Source: Selenomonas sputigena
GTDB taxonomy: Bacteria; Bacillota; Negativicutes; Selenomonadales; Selenomonadaceae
Length of the DNA: 64,000 bases
Direction of reading: 5' to 3'
Assembly (NCBI RefSeq): GCF_026015965.1
Contig: NZ_CP110383.1
Coordinates: 186,001 to 250,000, forward strand
In this document: positions 40,888 through 55,439 of the stretch, in pieces
Layout of the letters: each line of letters opens with the position of its first letter
How positions within the stretch are numbered: position 1 is the stretch's first letter
Made by a program: the position numbers and the translations under genes
Notes under the pieces: model-generated
What the model was told of the DNA's origin: nothing
What the model saw: only the letters and a program-made list of their open reading frames with translations
Databases searched by the model: none

Positions 40888-40916
40888 TTGACAAATGGTA
40901 GGATAATCGGTATGAT
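40888..40916 (+). promoter_or_regulatory. Promoter of the HMA2/ATPase operon
   Basis: Consensus TTGACA (40888-40893) and TATGAT (40911-40916) with 17-base spacing, 29 bases after the aepY stop. The second HMA2 operon has an equally strong TTGACA/TATAAT promoter at 54788. Confidence 0.8.
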
Positions 40917-40998
40917 AGGAAAAGACGTTGACGCGAAGAAAGTGCCGAAGAAGCGGTCTTTCGAGTCGACACTTTTGAATTTTAGGAGGATGAATATT

Positions 40999-41217
40999 AT
41001 GGGTACGATTTTCTCTAAGAGCGATTTCTGGATTGGTCTTGCTGTCGGCGCTGTCGCAGGCGTTTTTGGCTATCGCTTCATGCAGGAGCGCGAGCAGCAG
41101 ATGATGGCGATTCAGCAGGGTGCTCCTGCAGCGCAGGTGCCGCTTGCTGAGCTTCAGCGCCAGAAGGAAGAGCTTGAGGACCTCATCGCTGCGCAGGAAG
41201 CCGGCGCGAACCAGTAA
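40999..41217 (+). CDS. Small membrane protein with C-terminal coiled coil, linked to HMA2 genes
   Basis: The 72-residue protein has one N-terminal hydrophobic helix (WIGLAVGAVAGVFGYRF) and a Gln/Glu-rich helical tail (LAELQRQKEELEDLIAAQEA). A clear paralogue sits at 54932, also directly upstream of an HMA2 gene, so the pairing is functional rather than accidental. It may anchor or scaffold the metal-binding partners at the membrane, which is inference. TAGGAGG nine bases before ATG 40999 fixes the start. Confidence 0.75.
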   Translation: MGTIFSKSDFWIGLAVGAVAGVFGYRFMQEREQQMMAIQQGAPAAQVPLAELQRQKEELEDLIAAQEAGANQ

Positions 41218-41229
41218 GGGAAACATAAG

Positions 41230-41296
41230 AGGGGCTGCGACAGGCAAATGCTCGTATCGTCATGGCATATTGCGTGCGCAGCCCCTTTCCTGTTTT
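41230..41296 (+). terminator. Hairpin/attenuator between the small membrane protein and HMA2 genes
   Basis: AGGGGCTGCG (41230-41239) pairs perfectly with CGCAGCCCCT (41277-41286) and is followed by TTCCTGTTTT. Placed 12 bases after the first gene, it should reduce read-through so that the small protein is made in excess. Confidence 0.65.
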
Positions 41297-41330
41297 GCTG
41301 TTGATAACGAATTGCATGAAGGAGGACGCT

Positions 41331-41855
41331 ATGGCAAAGATTTCTTTAGGCTTGCCGCTGGCAGCGGCTGCCGCAGGCACGGTCGTGACGCTCTTTGTTC
41401 CGGCGAAGCGTCTGCATATCGTCTGTGGCACGGCGTGGGCGGCACTCTCGCTCGTTCACGCTTGGCAGTATCGCAAAAAGCTCGCGAAAGATCTTGCGAT
41501 GCCGTTCGGCGCAAGTCTCAAGCAAAATGTGATGAAGAAGATTGACGAGGGGCTTCAGAAGCTGCCGCTGCCGCCGACGAAGCTCGGCGCACTCATCGGC
41601 TCGATGCGCCCTGCCGCCTATACGCCGGGCAGGATGCGCCTCTACAGCCGTTCACTCATGGGAAACGAGAAGCTTAGAGAGCAGATTCTTGCGTACTTCG
41701 CCGACTGTCCCGAGGTGGACAAGGTCGAGTGCAGTACGCTCACCGGCTCCGTGCTCATCACCTATGAGCCGGAATTTTTTGCTGAGAACGAAGAGCTTTC
41801 ACAGATTGAAACGTATGTGAAGCATCATGTGCAGATGGCACAGGGGAGGAGTTAA
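41331..41855 (+). CDS. HMA2-type domain membrane protein
   Basis: The 174-residue protein has two hydrophobic segments near the N terminus (LGLPLAAAAAGTVVTLFVP; IVCGTAWAALSLVHAW), then a ferredoxin-fold HMA2-like domain (TPGRMRLYSRSLMGNEKLREQI, VDKVECSTLTGSVLITYEP). The canonical CxxC metal site of HMA domains is absent. It probably serves the P-type ATPase encoded downstream as a docking or regulatory partner. Start at ATG 41331 behind AAGGAGGA. Confidence 0.75.
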   Translation: MAKISLGLPLAAAAAGTVVTLFVPAKRLHIVCGTAWAALSLVHAWQYRKKLAKDLAMPFGASLKQNVMKKIDEGLQKLPLPPTKLGALIGSMRPAAYTPGRMRLYSRSLMGNEKLREQILAYFADCPEVDKVECSTLTGSVLITYEPEFFAENEELSQIETYVKHHVQMAQGRS

Positions 41856-41861
41856 ATCTTT

Positions 41862-42698
41862 ATGTCTTATATGTCTGGTTTGATGATCGGCACGGCCCTT
41901 GTCCAAGGCCTCGGCAGCATGCTTTCGGGCGGCGCTTCTGCAGGCATGGGCGGCGGCATGGGCATGGGCAGGAGCGCGGGCATGAGCGGTCTTTTCGGCA
42001 TGGCGTCCGGCATGGGGCGGGGCGGCATGGGCAGAAGTTCCGGCATGAGCGGACTCTTTAACATGATGCCGACGGGCATGGGCAGCGGCATGAGCAGCAT
42101 GTTCGGTCAAGGCAGGGGACGCGGCAAGGGCATGGCGCAGGACGCGTCCGGCTCTGCAGCCGTGTCTGCACCGGCAATGCCAGCTTTCGCGCTGAAGAGT
42201 GCCGTGCCCGGGCGCAGGCGCTACTATGCGGCGGCCCTGCAGGGGAACGAGGAGCTGGCAAAGCTTCTGGAGAAGAACCTTGGCCGCATCGCCTTCATCG
42301 ATTCCGTCAAGGCGTCGAGTGTCACGGGCAGTCTGCTCGTCTGCTATACGGGCGATGAGGGAGCTGTCGATCGCCTGATGGCGGATCTTGGCAAGCGCGT
42401 CTTTGGTGCTACGGAGCATGCGGGTTTTAATCTGCCGCAGGGGCTTTCCGATTTGCTCCCTGCGGCAGGCGTCACTCAGCCGCTCGCTGAACTCGGTGCA
42501 AGCATCCGCCGCGCAGCAGGCGCGGCGAACGTATGGCTGCACGAGAAGACGCATGGCTGGCTCGATTTCCCGTCGGTATTCGCTCTCGGCTTCATCGTGC
42601 GCGGCTTGCGCAAGATCCTGCTCTATGAACAGCGGCCGTCGGGTCCTCAGATGCTTTGGTGGGCATTCTCGATCTTGAAAGGATGGAAGATGATATGA
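41862..42698 (+). CDS. Gly/Met-rich HMA2-type domain protein
   Basis: The 278-residue protein has a low-complexity N-terminal region (about 20-95) made of repeated GMG, SGMSGLF and GMGRG units with some 20 methionines. An HMA2-like domain follows (about 110-185; PGRRRYYAAALQGNEELAKLL, VKASSVTGSLLVCY), then a C-terminal hydrophobic segment. Methionine-rich stretches often bind Cu(I) or other soft metals, so metal capture for the adjacent ATPase is plausible but not shown. The gene overlaps the ATPase gene by four bases (ATGA). Confidence 0.72.
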   Translation: MSYMSGLMIGTALVQGLGSMLSGGASAGMGGGMGMGRSAGMSGLFGMASGMGRGGMGRSSGMSGLFNMMPTGMGSGMSSMFGQGRGRGKGMAQDASGSAAVSAPAMPAFALKSAVPGRRRYYAAALQGNEELAKLLEKNLGRIAFIDSVKASSVTGSLLVCYTGDEGAVDRLMADLGKRVFGATEHAGFNLPQGLSDLLPAAGVTQPLAELGASIRRAAGAANVWLHEKTHGWLDFPSVFALGFIVRGLRKILLYEQRPSGPQMLWWAFSILKGWKMI

Positions 42699-44785
42699 CG
42701 TATGGGACATGCTCGCTCCGCCTATCGGCGGATCTTGCTCAGGATAAGCGCGCCCTCTTGGGTGCACAGCTTCGAAGCATAAAGGGCGTCGTCGCCGCTT
42801 CGGTCGGCGACAAGGCGCTGACGGTCTGGTACAAGGAAGAATTGCCCCTCGCACTCGTGCGTCGGCTCGTCAAGCGCATGGAAGAAGAGTGCGCACCGAG
42901 CGATCCCGAGCTTGACATGGCGGGCTATCGGCGCGAAGCAATCTTCTCGCTCGCGAGCTTCGCGGGCATGAAGGCGCTTGAAAAGCTCGCGCCTGAAGCT
43001 TTTGCGGGAATGAAGGTGTTTCGCAGTCTCCTCGTCTTGGCCATCGCGCGCAACTTCCTCAAGAACGGCGTCGTGGGCATGGTGAAAGAGCGCCGCCCGA
43101 ACGCCGACACGCTGACGAGTACGGCGGTTATCGCCTCCGTGCTCGCAGGCAAGCCCGAATCGAGCCTCACGCTGCTGACGCTGTCGAACGGCGCTGAGAT
43201 GCTGACGGCTTACGCAGCGGAGCGCGCGAAGAAGCAGATTTCCGGCCTTCTGAACATGAACCAGCGCTTTGTTTGGCTCATTGACGGCGGCGTCGAGCGC
43301 AAGGTCGCGGTCGAGTCCGTGCAGGTCGGCGACCGCATCGCGGCACATTCGGGTGAGATGATCTGCGTCGACGGCCGCGTCGTCAGCGGCAAGGCGTCCG
43401 TGAACCAGGCGTCGATCACGGGCGAGTCGAATCCCGCGATGAAGCGCGAGAAGTCGCCTGTCTACGCAGGCTCTGTCATCGAGGTCGGCGAGATCGTCAT
43501 CGAGGTCGAGAAGACGGGCAAGGACACGTCGCTCGCGCACATCGTCCACCTCGTCGAAGAGGCGCAGTCGAGACGTGCGCCCGTGCAGAACTTCGCCGAC
43601 AACATGGCGAACATGCTCGTGCCGATCTCGTTCCTCGGCGCGGCGATCGTCTACGGCGCGACGCGCGATTGGCAGAGGGTGCTGAACCTCCTGTTCATCG
43701 ACTTCTCGTGCGGCTTGAAGCTCTCGACAGCGACGGCGATTTCCGCTTCGATTGCGGCGGCGGCGAAGAAGGGCATTCTCGTCAAGGGCGGCAACTATAT
43801 GGAAGCGCTCGCTAATACCGATACTGTCGTCCTCGACAAGACAGGCACGATCACGGTCGGCATCCCGCAGATCTCCTCCATCAAGACGGCGGAGGGCGTG
43901 ACGGAGAAGGAGATGATCCTTCTGGCAGCGTCGGCGGAGATGCACTCCGTGCATCCTCTGGCTGTTGCCATTCAGAAGTACGTCAAGGACAACAACTGGG
44001 AAGTGCCGCAGCACCGCTCGTCGAAGACGATCGTCGCACGCGGCATGCAGGCGGTCGTGCCTGATTTCGACGGCTTCAAGGGCGGCGACGTGATCGTCGG
44101 CAGCTACAAGTTCATGAAGGAGCGCGGCGTGCAGGGCGCGGGCGAGCTCGTCGTCGAGGACACGACGGAAAACTTCCTCTACATCGCGCGGAACGGCTCG
44201 CTCATGGGCATCATCGGCATCACCGATCCCGTGCGCCCGAAGATGAAGAAGACGCTGAACCAGATGCGCCGTTACGGCGTCGACGAGATCGTGATGCTCA
44301 CGGGCGACTCGGAGAAGGTCGCCGATCATGTGGCGCGTCAGATGGACATCGACTCCTACCATGCCGAGGTCTTGCCCGAAGACAAGGCGAACTACGTCAT
44401 GAAGCTCAAGGAGCGCGGCGGCAGAGTCATGATGGTCGGCGACGGCATCAACGACGCGCCGGCGCTTGCCTTTGCCGACGTCGGCGTGACGCTCGGCGGC
44501 CGCCAGACGGACATTGCCGCCGAGTCTTCGGCAGTGACGATCCGCTCGGAAGATCCTGAAGGCCTCGTCGACGCTCTGCGTCTCGGCAAGCGCACGATGG
44601 GATTGATCCATCAGAATTTCCGCGCGACGATCCTCGTCAACTCGGGCGCCATGCTCATGGGCGCCTTGGGCATGATCAGCCCGCTGTGGGCGGCTGTCAT
44701 CCACAACACGGCGACGCTCGCCGTCGTCTTAAACAGCGCGCGCATCCTCTCGACAGGCAAAAAGCCTGTAAGGCGCGTCGGCTGA
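42695..44785 (+). CDS. P1B-like heavy-metal P-type ATPase lacking the CPx motif
   Basis: The protein has about 696 residues: an N-terminal HMA-like domain without CxxC, then a P-type core with TGES (about 242), phosphorylation motif DKTGT (Asp381), the P1B-specific HP dipeptide (HSVHPLAVA, about 418), GDGINDAPALA (about 582), and C-terminal membrane helices. The metal-selecting motif in the sixth helix, usually CPC, SPC or TPC, reads DFSCGLKLST (336-345), so the proline is missing. Metal specificity cannot be inferred. Start at ATG 42695 (ATGA overlap); an ATG at 42683 is an alternative. Confidence 0.87.
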   Translation: MTYGTCSLRLSADLAQDKRALLGAQLRSIKGVVAASVGDKALTVWYKEELPLALVRRLVKRMEEECAPSDPELDMAGYRREAIFSLASFAGMKALEKLAPEAFAGMKVFRSLLVLAIARNFLKNGVVGMVKERRPNADTLTSTAVIASVLAGKPESSLTLLTLSNGAEMLTAYAAERAKKQISGLLNMNQRFVWLIDGGVERKVAVESVQVGDRIAAHSGEMICVDGRVVSGKASVNQASITGESNPAMKREKSPVYAGSVIEVGEIVIEVEKTGKDTSLAHIVHLVEEAQSRRAPVQNFADNMANMLVPISFLGAAIVYGATRDWQRVLNLLFIDFSCGLKLSTATAISASIAAAAKKGILVKGGNYMEALANTDTVVLDKTGTITVGIPQISSIKTAEGVTEKEMILLAASAEMHSVHPLAVAIQKYVKDNNWEVPQHRSSKTIVARGMQAVVPDFDGFKGGDVIVGSYKFMKERGVQGAGELVVEDTTENFLYIARNGSLMGIIGITDPVRPKMKKTLNQMRRYGVDEIVMLTGDSEKVADHVARQMDIDSYHAEVLPEDKANYVMKLKERGGRVMMVGDGINDAPALAFADVGVTLGGRQTDIAAESSAVTIRSEDPEGLVDALRLGKRTMGLIHQNFRATILVNSGAMLMGALGMISPLWAAVIHNTATLAVVLNSARILSTGKKPVRRVG

Positions 44786-44916: not shown

Positions 44917-44945
44917 TTGACAATCATTCTCATCTCATTTATAAT
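44917..44945 (+). promoter_or_regulatory. Promoter with overlapping Fur-box-like sequence
   Basis: TTGACA (44917-44922) and TATAAT (44940-44945) have perfect 17-base spacing. The spacer reads ATCATTCTCATCTCATT, a run of hexamers resembling the Fur box and lying where a bound repressor would block RNA polymerase. Iron control is inferred. Confidence 0.6.
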
Positions 44946-45002: not shown

Positions 45003-45287
45003 ATGAGCAGTGTGGTGATTCTTGGGGGGAACGAGTGTATGGAGTGCCGTTATCGTGAGGCATGCAAGAGCTGCGGGTTCAAGGCGAAGGTTTTTCCGAA
45101 GATGTGTCGAGACCTCAGGAGGAAGATCGGCTCGCCTGATCTCATCATTCTTTTCACGAGCACGGCATCACACCAGCTTGCCATGCACGCGCAGGAAGAG
45201 GCGAAGAAGTGCAATGCGAAGATCGCTTTCTGCCACTCGGCAAGCATGGCGGCGTTGCAGAACGTCCTCGCTGAGCACTCAGCATGA
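45003..45287 (+). CDS. DUF2325-like protein
   Basis: The 94-residue protein begins SSVVILGGNECMECRYREACKSCG and continues SPDLIILFTSTASHQLAMHA and KIAFCHSASMAALQN, matching the DUF2325 pattern of a short Rossmann-like fold. It has seven cysteines, including a CMECRYREACKSC cluster that could bind a metal. Its promoter carries a Fur-like box and the next operon is feoAB, so a role in iron or redox homeostasis is plausible. No catalytic function is known. Confidence 0.75.
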   Translation: MSSVVILGGNECMECRYREACKSCGFKAKVFPKMCRDLRRKIGSPDLIILFTSTASHQLAMHAQEEAKKCNAKIAFCHSASMAALQNVLAEHSA

Positions 45288-45757: not shown

Positions 45758-45997
45758 ATGACGTTGAAAGACGGAAAGACAGGAATGTCTCTTCGTGTCG
45801 ACAAGGTGGGCGATTCGGAGCTCAAGCAGCGCCTGATGACGATGGGGCTGATTCCGGGCACGCGCATCAAGGTGCTGCCGTCGGCGCCGATGGGCGATCC
45901 GATGGCGATCGGGCTTCGCTCGTACAATCTCGCGCTTCGCCGCGCTGATGCGGAGAAGATTGAAGTGACGGAAATCAAGGAAGGAGCGGGAGCCTGA
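45758..45997 (+). CDS. feoA: Ferrous iron transport protein FeoA
   Basis: The 79-residue SH3-like protein has SLRVDKVGDSELKQRLMTMGLIPGTRIKV and PMAIGLRSYNLALRR, the FeoA pattern. It is thought to regulate or stabilise FeoB at the inner face of the membrane. GGAGGT seven bases upstream supports ATG 45758. An in-frame upstream extension through the leader element is open, but it has no family similarity. feoA and feoB share an ATGA overlap. Confidence 0.93.
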   Translation: MTLKDGKTGMSLRVDKVGDSELKQRLMTMGLIPGTRIKVLPSAPMGDPMAIGLRSYNLALRRADAEKIEVTEIKEGAGA

Positions 45998-47898
45998 TGA
46001 GCACCATGAGCGTCGCCCTGACGGGCAACCCGAACACGGGAAAATCGACCATATTCAACGAATTGACGGGCATGCGCCAGAAGATCGGCAACTGGCCGGG
46101 CGTCACCGTCGACAAGAAGATGGGCGTCGTCAACTACAAGGATCGCGTGATCACAGTCGTCGACCTGCCCGGTACCTACAGTATCAATGCGCGCTCGGCG
46201 GAAGAGCAGGTCGTCATCGACTACTTCAAGACGACGATGCCCGACCTCGCCGTCGATGTCATTGACTCCTCGAATATCGAGCGCAATCTCTTCCTCACAG
46301 TGCAGCTCCTCGAAGAGGGAATTCCTCTGCTCATCGACCTCAACATGCAGGACGAGGCGGAAAGAAAGGGCATTCGCATCAACATCCAGAAGCTCGAAGA
46401 GGCTCTGGGCATGCCTGTCGTGCAGACAGTTGGCCGCAGCAAGAAGAGCATCCAGAAGCTCATCGAAATCTTCACGACGACTGTCATGTCGAACTACCGT
46501 CCGAGTGCGATGGTTGAAGAGCACAAGGCGAAGGCGACGGAACTCAAGAAGAGCGGCCTTTCCGCCGAAGAGCTGGACGAAAAGCTCATCGAGATGCGCT
46601 ATGATCTCATCGACAAGATCATGAAGAAGGCGGTTGTCGTCGGAAACGTCGGGCTGTCGACTTCGGAGAAGATCGACCGCGTGCTCGCGAACGGCGTCTT
46701 GGCGCTGCCTATTCTCCTCGGCATTCTCTACTTGGTGTTCTGTATCGCCTTCACGTGGATTGGTCAGCCGCTCGCAGATGCCGTCGGCGACTGGATCGGC
46801 GGACCGTTCACCGACTGGATCAATGACGCGATGGAATCTGCGGGCGTCGCCGAGTGGCTGAAATCCTTGATTGCAGACGGTATCGTCGCGGGTGTCGGCA
46901 ACGTCATCAACTTCGTGCCGCTCATTTTCACACTGTTCTTCATGCTGTCCTTCCTCGACGGTACGGGATATATGGCGCGCGTCGCTTTCATCATGGATCC
47001 GATCATGCGCCGCGTCGGCCTCACGGGCAAGGGCATCATGCCGCTGATGGTCGGCTTCGGCTGCGGCGTGCCGGCCATCATGGGTGCGCGTGCGCTCGAC
47101 TCGGAAAAGGACAGGCTCACGTCGATTCTCATCACGCCTTTTTTGACATGCTCGGCGAAGCTGCCGATCATGGCGCTCTTCGCTGCGATGTTCTTCCCTG
47201 AACATGCCGCGAATCTCGTATTCTCGATGTACATCATCGGCATCGTCGTCGCCATCATCATGGCGAAGGTTCTGGGCATCACGGCGTTCAGGAGCCAGGG
47301 ATCGACGTTCCTCCTCGAACTGCCGCCGTACCGCATGCCGGACATGAAGACGGTGCTCCTGGAGACTTGGGACAAGGGCAAGGGATACCTGATCAAAGCC
47401 GGTACGATCATCTTCGCAATGAGCGTAGCCATCTGGTTCTTGTCGAACTACAATGCGGACGGCGCTACGGATGAGATGAGCGAGTCCTTCCTCGCATCGA
47501 TCGGCGGCGGTATGAGCCATCTCTTCGCGCTGCACGGCTTCGAGACTTGGGAGTCGGGCGCGGCCGTCGTCACGGGCATCATGGCGAAGGAGTCCGTCGT
47601 CTCGACGCTCGGTATCCTCTATGGCGTCGGCGATGTCTCGACCGAGGCGGAGGACGCCGCAGAGACGGCGACACAGCTCGCCGGCTCGATGGGCACGGCG
47701 TTCACGGCAGCCTCGGCGCTCGCCTTCATGGTATTCTCGCAGCTCTACACGCCGTGCATGACTTCGCTCGGCACGATCAAGAAGGAGACGGGCAAGTGGA
47801 GCTGGATGCTCTTCGCCGCCCTCTACACCTTCGGCGTCGCCTGGGTCGTCTCACTTCTTGTCTACTGGGGAGCCTGCGCCTTCGGCATGAACGGCTAG
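45997..47898 (+). CDS. feoB: Ferrous iron transporter FeoB
   Basis: The 633-residue protein has an N-terminal G domain with GNPNTGKST (10-18), DLPGTYS and NMQDEAERKGI (G4), a helical linker, and a polytopic membrane domain with two Gate motifs (MPLMVGFGCGVPAI; YTPCMTSLGTIKKE). It imports Fe2+ using nucleotide-regulated gating. It overlaps feoA and is followed after 45 bases by its Cys-rich partner gene. A Fur-box-like site and the leader element upstream suggest iron control. Confidence 0.96.
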   Translation: MSTMSVALTGNPNTGKSTIFNELTGMRQKIGNWPGVTVDKKMGVVNYKDRVITVVDLPGTYSINARSAEEQVVIDYFKTTMPDLAVDVIDSSNIERNLFLTVQLLEEGIPLLIDLNMQDEAERKGIRINIQKLEEALGMPVVQTVGRSKKSIQKLIEIFTTTVMSNYRPSAMVEEHKAKATELKKSGLSAEELDEKLIEMRYDLIDKIMKKAVVVGNVGLSTSEKIDRVLANGVLALPILLGILYLVFCIAFTWIGQPLADAVGDWIGGPFTDWINDAMESAGVAEWLKSLIADGIVAGVGNVINFVPLIFTLFFMLSFLDGTGYMARVAFIMDPIMRRVGLTGKGIMPLMVGFGCGVPAIMGARALDSEKDRLTSILITPFLTCSAKLPIMALFAAMFFPEHAANLVFSMYIIGIVVAIIMAKVLGITAFRSQGSTFLLELPPYRMPDMKTVLLETWDKGKGYLIKAGTIIFAMSVAIWFLSNYNADGATDEMSESFLASIGGGMSHLFALHGFETWESGAAVVTGIMAKESVVSTLGILYGVGDVSTEAEDAAETATQLAGSMGTAFTAASALAFMVFSQLYTPCMTSLGTIKKETGKWSWMLFAALYTFGVAWVVSLLVYWGACAFGMNG

Positions 47899-47943: not shown

Positions 47944-48108
47944 ATGGCAAGCATCATTGTCGGCGCAATTGTCGCCGTCCTGCTCTTCTTCGCGCTGCGC
48001 CACGTCTATCACAATGTGAAGGCGGGCAAGGAAGACTGCTGCGGCGGAAGCTGCAGCGGCGGCTGCGGAGGCTGCGGCGGCAGCTGCAGCACGGGGCAGG
48101 AAAAGTAA
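47944..48108 (+). CDS. FeoB-associated Cys-rich small membrane protein
   Basis: The 54-residue protein has a single N-terminal helix (IIVGAIVAVLLFFALRHVYHNV) and a C-terminal Gly/Cys tail with six cysteines at 32, 33, 37, 41, 44 and 48. This matches the FeoB-associated Cys-rich membrane protein family that stands in for FeoC in many Firmicutes. It probably binds iron or an Fe-S cluster near FeoB. The AAAGGAG site before ATG 47944 and the terminator right after confirm it as the end of the feo operon. Confidence 0.9.
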   Translation: MASIIVGAIVAVLLFFALRHVYHNVKAGKEDCCGGSCSGGCGGCGGSCSTGQEK

Positions 48109-54931: not shown

Positions 54932-55135
54932 ATGGGTGATCTTGGATTTGGCAAGCCGATTTTCTGGGTGGGTCTCGCTGCGGGCATCGTGGCGGGTGCG
55001 CTCGGCTATCGCTGCGTGCAGAAGCGCTGCGCGGCGAAGAAGGCGGCTGCTGCCGCACTGCCGCAGGCATCGCTCGAAGAGCTTCTGCAGCAGAAGGCGG
55101 AGATCGAGGCTCTGATCGAGGCGCAGCAGGCGTAA
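54932..55135 (+). CDS. Small membrane protein with C-terminal coiled coil (paralogue of the 40999 gene)
   Basis: The 67-residue protein has one hydrophobic helix (WVGLAAGIVAGALGYRC) then a helical tail (LEELLQQKAEIEALIEAQQA). Helix and tail align with the protein at 40999, though here two cysteines (YRCVQKRC) follow the helix. It pairs with the adjacent HMA2 gene one base downstream. Function is unknown but clearly tied to the HMA2 module. Confidence 0.75.
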   Translation: MGDLGFGKPIFWVGLAAGIVAGALGYRCVQKRCAAKKAAAAALPQASLEELLQQKAEIEALIEAQQA

Positions 55136-55136
55136 G

Positions 55137-55439
55137 ATGGGCATTCTCTCGGCGTTGGGCATACCAACGAACAAGTTCGAGCTCTTCCTGCGTTCCGTCG
55201 AGGTTTCGTCCTACATCCCCGGGCGCATACGGCTGCACAGCAAGATGCTCGTCGGCAGCCCCAAGGTGGAGAAGGAACTTCTGGCGTACCTTCGCTCGTA
55301 TTCGGAGCTGAGCGAGGTGGAGACGAGCACGGCGACAGGCTCGATCCTCATCAAGTACACGCCGCAGCTTCTCCATACGAACGAGGAGCTGACGCGTGCG
55401 GAAGCGTACATCAAGGAGCACGCGAAGAATCGCAAATGA
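55137..55439 (+). CDS. HMA2-type domain protein, short form
   Basis: The 100-residue protein is essentially one HMA2-like domain: YIPGRIRLHSKMLVGSPKVEKELLAYL, SEVETSTATGSILIKYTPQ. It lacks the membrane helices of the paralogue at 41331 and has no CxxC. It starts one base after the previous stop, so translation is probably coupled. It may bind the same ATPase or act as a soluble partner. Confidence 0.75.
   Translation: MGILSALGIPTNKFELFLRSVEVSSYIPGRIRLHSKMLVGSPKVEKELLAYLRSYSELSEVETSTATGSILIKYTPQLLHTNEELTRAEAYIKEHAKNRK

Follow-up and report, generated by a model that had tools for sequence, protein, structure and literature searches.

P-type ATPases of the P1B6 group have an HN pair in their last core helix, and the CPC-bearing pump CtpC has been termed "P1B6-like" (PMC9374683). 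The substrate of P1B-6 pumps is given as Fe(II) (PMC7558416, Table 4). DUF6110 proteins are typical companions of P1B6 pumps and have been proposed to cluster them as PacL1 does; PacL1 and CtpC form membrane efflux platforms (PMC9374683). In C. difficile, the fezAB locus corresponds to CD630_05910-05920 (PMC11651100), and ferrosomes require both FezA and FezB, which are Fur-repressed (PMC12574912). FezB, a member of P1B-6, is a known constituent of ferrosomes, the iron-storage compartments that this group loads in other bacteria; no direct transport data for it were found in the literature searched.

Here we analyze a four-gene operon in a 64,000-nucleotide stretch of the Selenomonas sputigena genome (hereafter the window). 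We consider it fairly probable that this operon is a Fur-linked, ferrosome-like module for the sequestration of Fe(II), whose pump belongs to a sister clade of FezB. That the pump carries Fe(II) and that vesicles form are functions that we infer. No paper linking Selenomonas and ferrosomes was found in the literature searched.

A conserved operon with a P1B-6 type ATPase

The operon extends from position 40999 to 44785, and all four of its genes lie on the plus strand. Its features are as follows.

40888..40916, plus strand: operon promoter TTGACA-17-TATGAT, from the sequence
40901-40915, plus strand: weak Fur-box-like site GGATAATCGGTATGA (10/14, p 0.05-0.1)
40999..41217, plus strand: ORF1, FezA-like small protein of 72 aa with a glycine-rich TM helix and a C-terminal coil
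41228..41288, plus strand: hairpin resembling a terminator or attenuator (12-bp stem, imperfect T-run), in the gap from ORF1 to ORF2
41331..41855, plus strand: ORF2, HMA_2 protein a, 174 aa, no CxxC (PF19991, E 9.5e-10)
41862..42698, plus strand: ORF3, HMA_2 protein b, 278 aa (PF19991, E 6.1e-28)
42695..44785, plus strand: ORF4, P1B-6 type ATPase (FezB-like), 696 aa (IDFSCGLKLST ... DKTGT ... GDGIND ... IHN)

A TTG start codon had been proposed at 40888, but these letters are the -35 hexamer of the promoter; ORF1 starts at 40999, behind an AGGAGG at 40984-40989. The ATPase most likely starts at 42695, where it overlaps ORF3 by ATGA. The order ORF1-2-3-4 is conserved in nearly all loci read, with the small gene last in a few, and the ATPase was found in 102 of the 189 genomes of the order. 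One genus has a further HMA_2 gene 3' of the ATPase (L148, L149, and L150).

As the original prediction described, the locus encodes a single P-type ATPase that retains DKTGT, HP, and GDGIND and lacks CPC/SPC. Its membership in the P1B type is evident from E1-E2 ATPase and HAD domains (Pfam) and from a TIGR01525 match of 508 bits (cut-off 346). The motif of the ion-binding helix is IDFSCGLKLSTATA. When the ATPase is aligned with CopA from its own genome (ISCPCALGLATP), C-P-C is replaced by F-S-C, followed by GLKLST, such that the second Cys is retained. The same helix reads IDFSCGLKLS in the window ATPase and VDFSCALKLS in C. difficile FezB, neither of which has CPC. Furthermore, the last core TM helix carries HN (AAVIHNTATLAVVLNSAR), which is conserved in the SCG loci examined. 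Judged by these features, the assignment of the ATPase to P1B-6 is firm, and comparison of the motifs indicates that SCG marks out a subgroup that is known but little studied (P1B-6). By analogy with this group, ferrous iron, and not some new metal, is the most likely substrate of the ATPase.

Cysteine-free HMA_2 partners

The two partners were originally described as HMA2-like proteins without CxxC, and this description is borne out: both match PF19991 above the gathering score of 30 (39.1 bits for protein a and 98.1 bits for protein b), and neither has CxxC. The motif occurs in 0 of the HMA_2 homologues listed. On the sequences compared, its absence is a property of the HMA_2 family, and we rejected it as an unusual feature because it is common to all homologues listed.

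A Gly/Met-rich tail had also been noted. The richness is present (30 G and 18 M in 91 residues), but the region is the N-terminal third of ORF3 and not a tail. The combined G and M content is 45% in this genus, approximately 40% in one other genus, and 27% in a third, and nearly all other ORF3 orthologues have approximately 7-18%. As a metal site, the Met-rich region was rejected as a core feature because most orthologues lack it. The strangeness originally suggested for this locus is not supported: in this group, an SC(G/A) motif and CxxC-free HMA_2 partners are the rule, and the Met-rich region is a local expansion. This expansion (41862-42130 in the window; also in L146 and L147, and milder in L156) sits at the same place in each case, after the N-terminal helix and ahead of the HMA_2 domain.

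ORF3 is composed of an N-terminal helix, the Gly/Met-rich linker, an HMA-like domain, and C-terminal hydrophobic helices. Its AlphaFold model (mean pLDDT 72, with values above 90 over about residues 110-180) predicts a beta-beta-alpha-beta-beta-alpha domain with helices at both ends. A Foldseek search of this model against the PDB yielded weak best matches, none below E 0.001, which include several HMA domains and metallochaperones.

A duplicate pair of small-protein and HMA_2 genes lies at 54932-55439, 10 kb 3' of the operon, without an ATPase:

54932..55135, plus strand: second small FezA-like copy, 67 aa, without ATPase (sequence comparison)
55137..55439, plus strand: second HMA_2 copy, 100 aa, without ATPase (PF19991, E 7e-12)

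A small FezA-like protein followed by a conserved hairpin

A small coiled-coil membrane protein had been predicted, and ORF1 does encode one: its 72 aa comprise a glycine-rich TM helix (DFWIGLAVGAVAGVFGYR) and a charged C-terminal coil (LAELQRQKEELEDLIAAQEA). This protein is the best conserved of the partners, with approximately 74-85% identity across most genera of the family. Comparison of its profile with FezA-like proteins gave an hhalign score of 30.9 (probability 79%), as compared to at most 14.3 (probability up to 1.1%) for 20 column-shuffled controls. The parts in common are the glycine-rich helix and a C-terminal ED(L/I)xAE. By this measure, the small protein appears to resemble FezA (DUF6110) weakly, yet well above shuffled controls.

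No Pfam DUF6110 match was obtained for the small protein, and membership in either ZapG/YtxH or DUF6110 was rejected on sub-threshold or missing Pfam matches. Membership in PacL (DUF1490) was likewise rejected, as there is no DUF1490 match and the C-terminus, EAGANQ, has no metal motif. A PHROGs search returned nothing useful, and tblastn of the small protein against plasmids gave no match. Elsewhere (L060:433-970, minus strand), one protein seems, by eye, to combine a ferritin-like helical part with a TM and coil tail of the FezA/YtxH type, and this protein adjoins a CPCA_HN (CtpC-like) pump.

The gap 3' of ORF1 folds at -47.1 kcal/mol (z -4.55) into a GC stem with an imperfect T-run. Among the 29 relatives in which the small gene comes first in the operon, 26 have a terminator-like hairpin 3' of this gene, compared to 2.1% of shuffles. 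The same count is 4/29 after HMA2a, 0/29 after HMA2b, and 14/29 after the ATPase. Because the stem sequences vary between genera, it is the structure that is conserved and not one sequence. Given its position 3' of the small gene, partial termination at the hairpin should cause the small protein to be made in excess, and the simplest meaning of the element would be that of a partial terminator giving surplus small protein.

Iron genes and Fur-box-like sites

The genes downstream of the operon include those for ferrous iron uptake:

44917..44945, plus strand: promoter TTGACA-17-TATAAT, overlapped by the Fur-box-like TGACAATCATTCTCA
44918-44932, plus strand: Fur-box-like TGACAATCATTCTCA (12/14), the clearest site in the window, before the DUF2325 gene
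45003..45287, plus strand: DUF2325 protein with its own promoter (PF10087, E 1.5e-30)
45758..45997, plus strand: FeoA (PF04023, E 7.9e-21)
45997..47898, plus strand: FeoB, Fe(II) importer (PF02421, E 4.8e-60; TIGR00437, 586 bits, cut-off 316)
47944..48108, plus strand: FeoB-associated Cys-rich membrane protein (PF12669, E 3.2e-9)

Linkage to feoB was assessed in a sample of 60 relatives, of which 33 genomes from 27 genera have an SCG pump. With a distance limit of 10 kb, feoB is found near this pump in 10 of the 33 genomes (8 of the 27 genera; G000, G141, G169, G039, G125, G187, G136, G038, G191, and G197), compared to approximately 0.4 expected from 1.4 feoB copies per genome. The corresponding P value is ~6e-12 if genomes are treated as independent and ~1e-9 by genus (28 genera entered). 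The arrangements vary, with feoB upstream or downstream and on the same or the opposite strand, which indicates that they are not one inherited block.

When scored over 30 homologous promoters, the Fur-box consensus exceeds every one of 393 shuffled palindromes; a shifted Fur box comes second. Three FUR-family proteins are encoded in the genome. Several observations count against the ferrosome-like reading: 23 of the 33 genomes with an SCG pump have no feoB neighbor, the Fur-like site of the window operon itself is weak (10/14), and the genome encodes a ferritin, so iron storage is not left to the operon alone. The presence of ferritin also led us to reject an argument based on its absence.

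A DUF2325 gene lies between the P1B-6 operon and feoAB both in the window and in another family (L117 and L118). On an Arcobacter plasmid, a P1B-6 locus also has a DUF2325 gene nearby (L138:3105-3437), together with a DUF2202 gene and genes for TonB receptors.

Phylogenetic placement and alternative functions

In a first tree of 38 pumps, with the motif columns included, the SCG family of the window forms one clade (100/99) and joins the FezB (SCA) clade at 97/96, with the CPCA_HN pumps next. For a second tree, the motif columns were masked and pumps from plasmid records of Priestia, Fusobacterium, Deinococcus, Vibrio, Azospirillum, and Arcobacter were added. SCG, SCA, and CPCA_HN pumps then form one clade (100/99), in which SCG and SCA together are monophyletic in only 46% of bootstraps. 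The trees were built without the FezB proteins of D. magneticus and R. palustris. On these alignments the SCG clade is likely the sister of FezB, although, with the motif masked, pumps of the CtpC-like type may be equally close. By its features and phylogeny the window pump goes with P1B-6, a sparsely characterised subgroup. This partly refutes the original suggestion, which was to fall if the pump belonged to a characterised P1B subgroup with known specificity.

The nearest rival is a plasma-membrane platform for Fe(II) efflux, in which the pump would export excess iron, the small protein would cluster pumps as PacL1 does, and no organelle would form. PacL1/CtpC provides the precedent, with a similar proposal for DUF6110 and P1B6 pumps (PMC9374683). 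Moreover, the window pump shares a clade with the CPCA_HN pumps, and nothing in the sequence proves vesicle formation. However, promoter-overlapping Fur-box-like sites and feo linkage suggest use alongside iron uptake rather than against excess, and FezAB, the nearest characterised system, makes organelles. We regard this explanation as unlikely, though worth keeping in mind.

That the masked tree does not separate SCG from CPCA_HN pumps would also suit a pump of the CtpC type that exports Zn(II) or Mn(II) and is related to P1B-6 by descent only. This possibility appears improbable because SC(G) replaces CPC, the helix has Asp and Lys as in FezB, feoB is linked, and three other P1B pumps with CPC are present in the genome to serve thiophilic metals. 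Finally, the literature searched yielded neither an experimental test nor a measured substrate for any member of the SCG clade, but a substrate new to P1B ATPases, as originally suggested, is very improbable given that the motif, HN, partners, and neighbors all fit the iron-linked P1B-6 group. The P1B-6 features, the phylogeny, and the surrounding iron genes do support the more general suggestion of a possible substrate other than a classical heavy metal.

A possible role in iron sequestration

Proteins of the FeoAB family are established importers of Fe(II) into the cytoplasm. If the operon is a ferrosome-like module, the P1B-6 ATPase would then transfer Fe(II) through a membrane to a space outside the cytoplasm. 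By analogy with FezAB, this space would most likely be an intracellular vesicle of the FezA/FezB type. The small glycine-zipper/coil protein, presumably supplied in excess via the attenuator, might gather the pumps or give their membrane its shape, a role that has been proposed for DUF6110/PacL-type proteins. The two HMA_2 proteins, being cysteine-free, may provide the pump with membrane-tethered domains for docking or regulation and not be thiol chaperones, and expression of the operon would be tied to Fur.

The kind of system (P1B-6, ferrosome-like) is ordinary; what is new is that the SCG clade is distinct, that its HMA_2 subunits are separate, and that an attenuator is conserved. It is possible, though we offer it only tentatively, that the SCG clade constitutes a vesicle system for Fe(II) in its own right, alongside FezAB, with the terminator setting a large excess of the membrane-shaping small protein over the pump and the HMA_2 domains acting as separate subunits.

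If the ferrosome-like reading is true, approximately half of the genomes of the order carry such an iron module with built-in stoichiometry control, and it becomes possible to test directly what the FezA-type protein and the cysteine-free HMA domains do. What looks like an odd heavy-metal pump would be recast as an iron gene, and many genomes with generic or cadmium/copper-type annotations would be corrected accordingly.

Comparison with known systems

Strains HC132 and CD160 (L104/L105) served as C. difficile reference genomes. The best match to the window pump is a 699-aa ATPase (34% identity, VDFSCALKLS, HN) with an N-terminal HMA_2 domain, encoded directly 3' of a DUF6110 protein (E 1.5e-23). 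This pair fits fezAB, as assigned from gene order and type. Both systems have a pump with an SC(A/G)xKL motif and HN, HMA_2, and, encoded just upstream, a small protein with an N-terminal glycine-rich TM and a coil that ends in ExxED(I/L)xAE. Both also have a link to Fur, in the case of the window family through enriched Fur-box-like sites. They differ in that FezB has DFSCA and the window pump DFSCG, and in that HMA_2 is fused to FezB, whereas the window has two separate HMA_2 proteins. In addition, C. difficile FezA is a DUF6110 protein and the small protein of the window lacks that call, and no feo genes lie beside the fez genes in the stretches read, in contrast to the window operon, which adjoins feo.

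The mycobacterial zinc efflux platform PacL1-CtpC likewise pairs a small TM and coil protein with an HN-type P1B pump, but CtpC, unlike the window pump, carries CPC, and this pump is needed for zinc resistance (PMC9374683).

Two plasmid loci are also similar. On Azospirillum brasilense p3, a six-gene locus (L137: HMA2, cation transporter, two hypotheticals, YtxH, and P-ATPase) shares a P1B-6 type pump (DYSCA there) with HMA2 and a small protein. It adjoins iron ABC transporter genes, its pump falls with the FezB (SCA) pumps in the tree, and it resembles the six fez genes of Rhodopseudomonas (PMC12016538) in gene number only. On Priestia megaterium pBM400, for which no function was found, the locus (L133) reads HMA2-HMA2-ATPase-HMA2-small protein. 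It has a DFICG motif and an extra HMA_2 and small gene 3' of the pump, but the gene types are the same as in the window, the pump is 46% identical, and the small protein has the same coil, EELQAQKERLEDMIAE.
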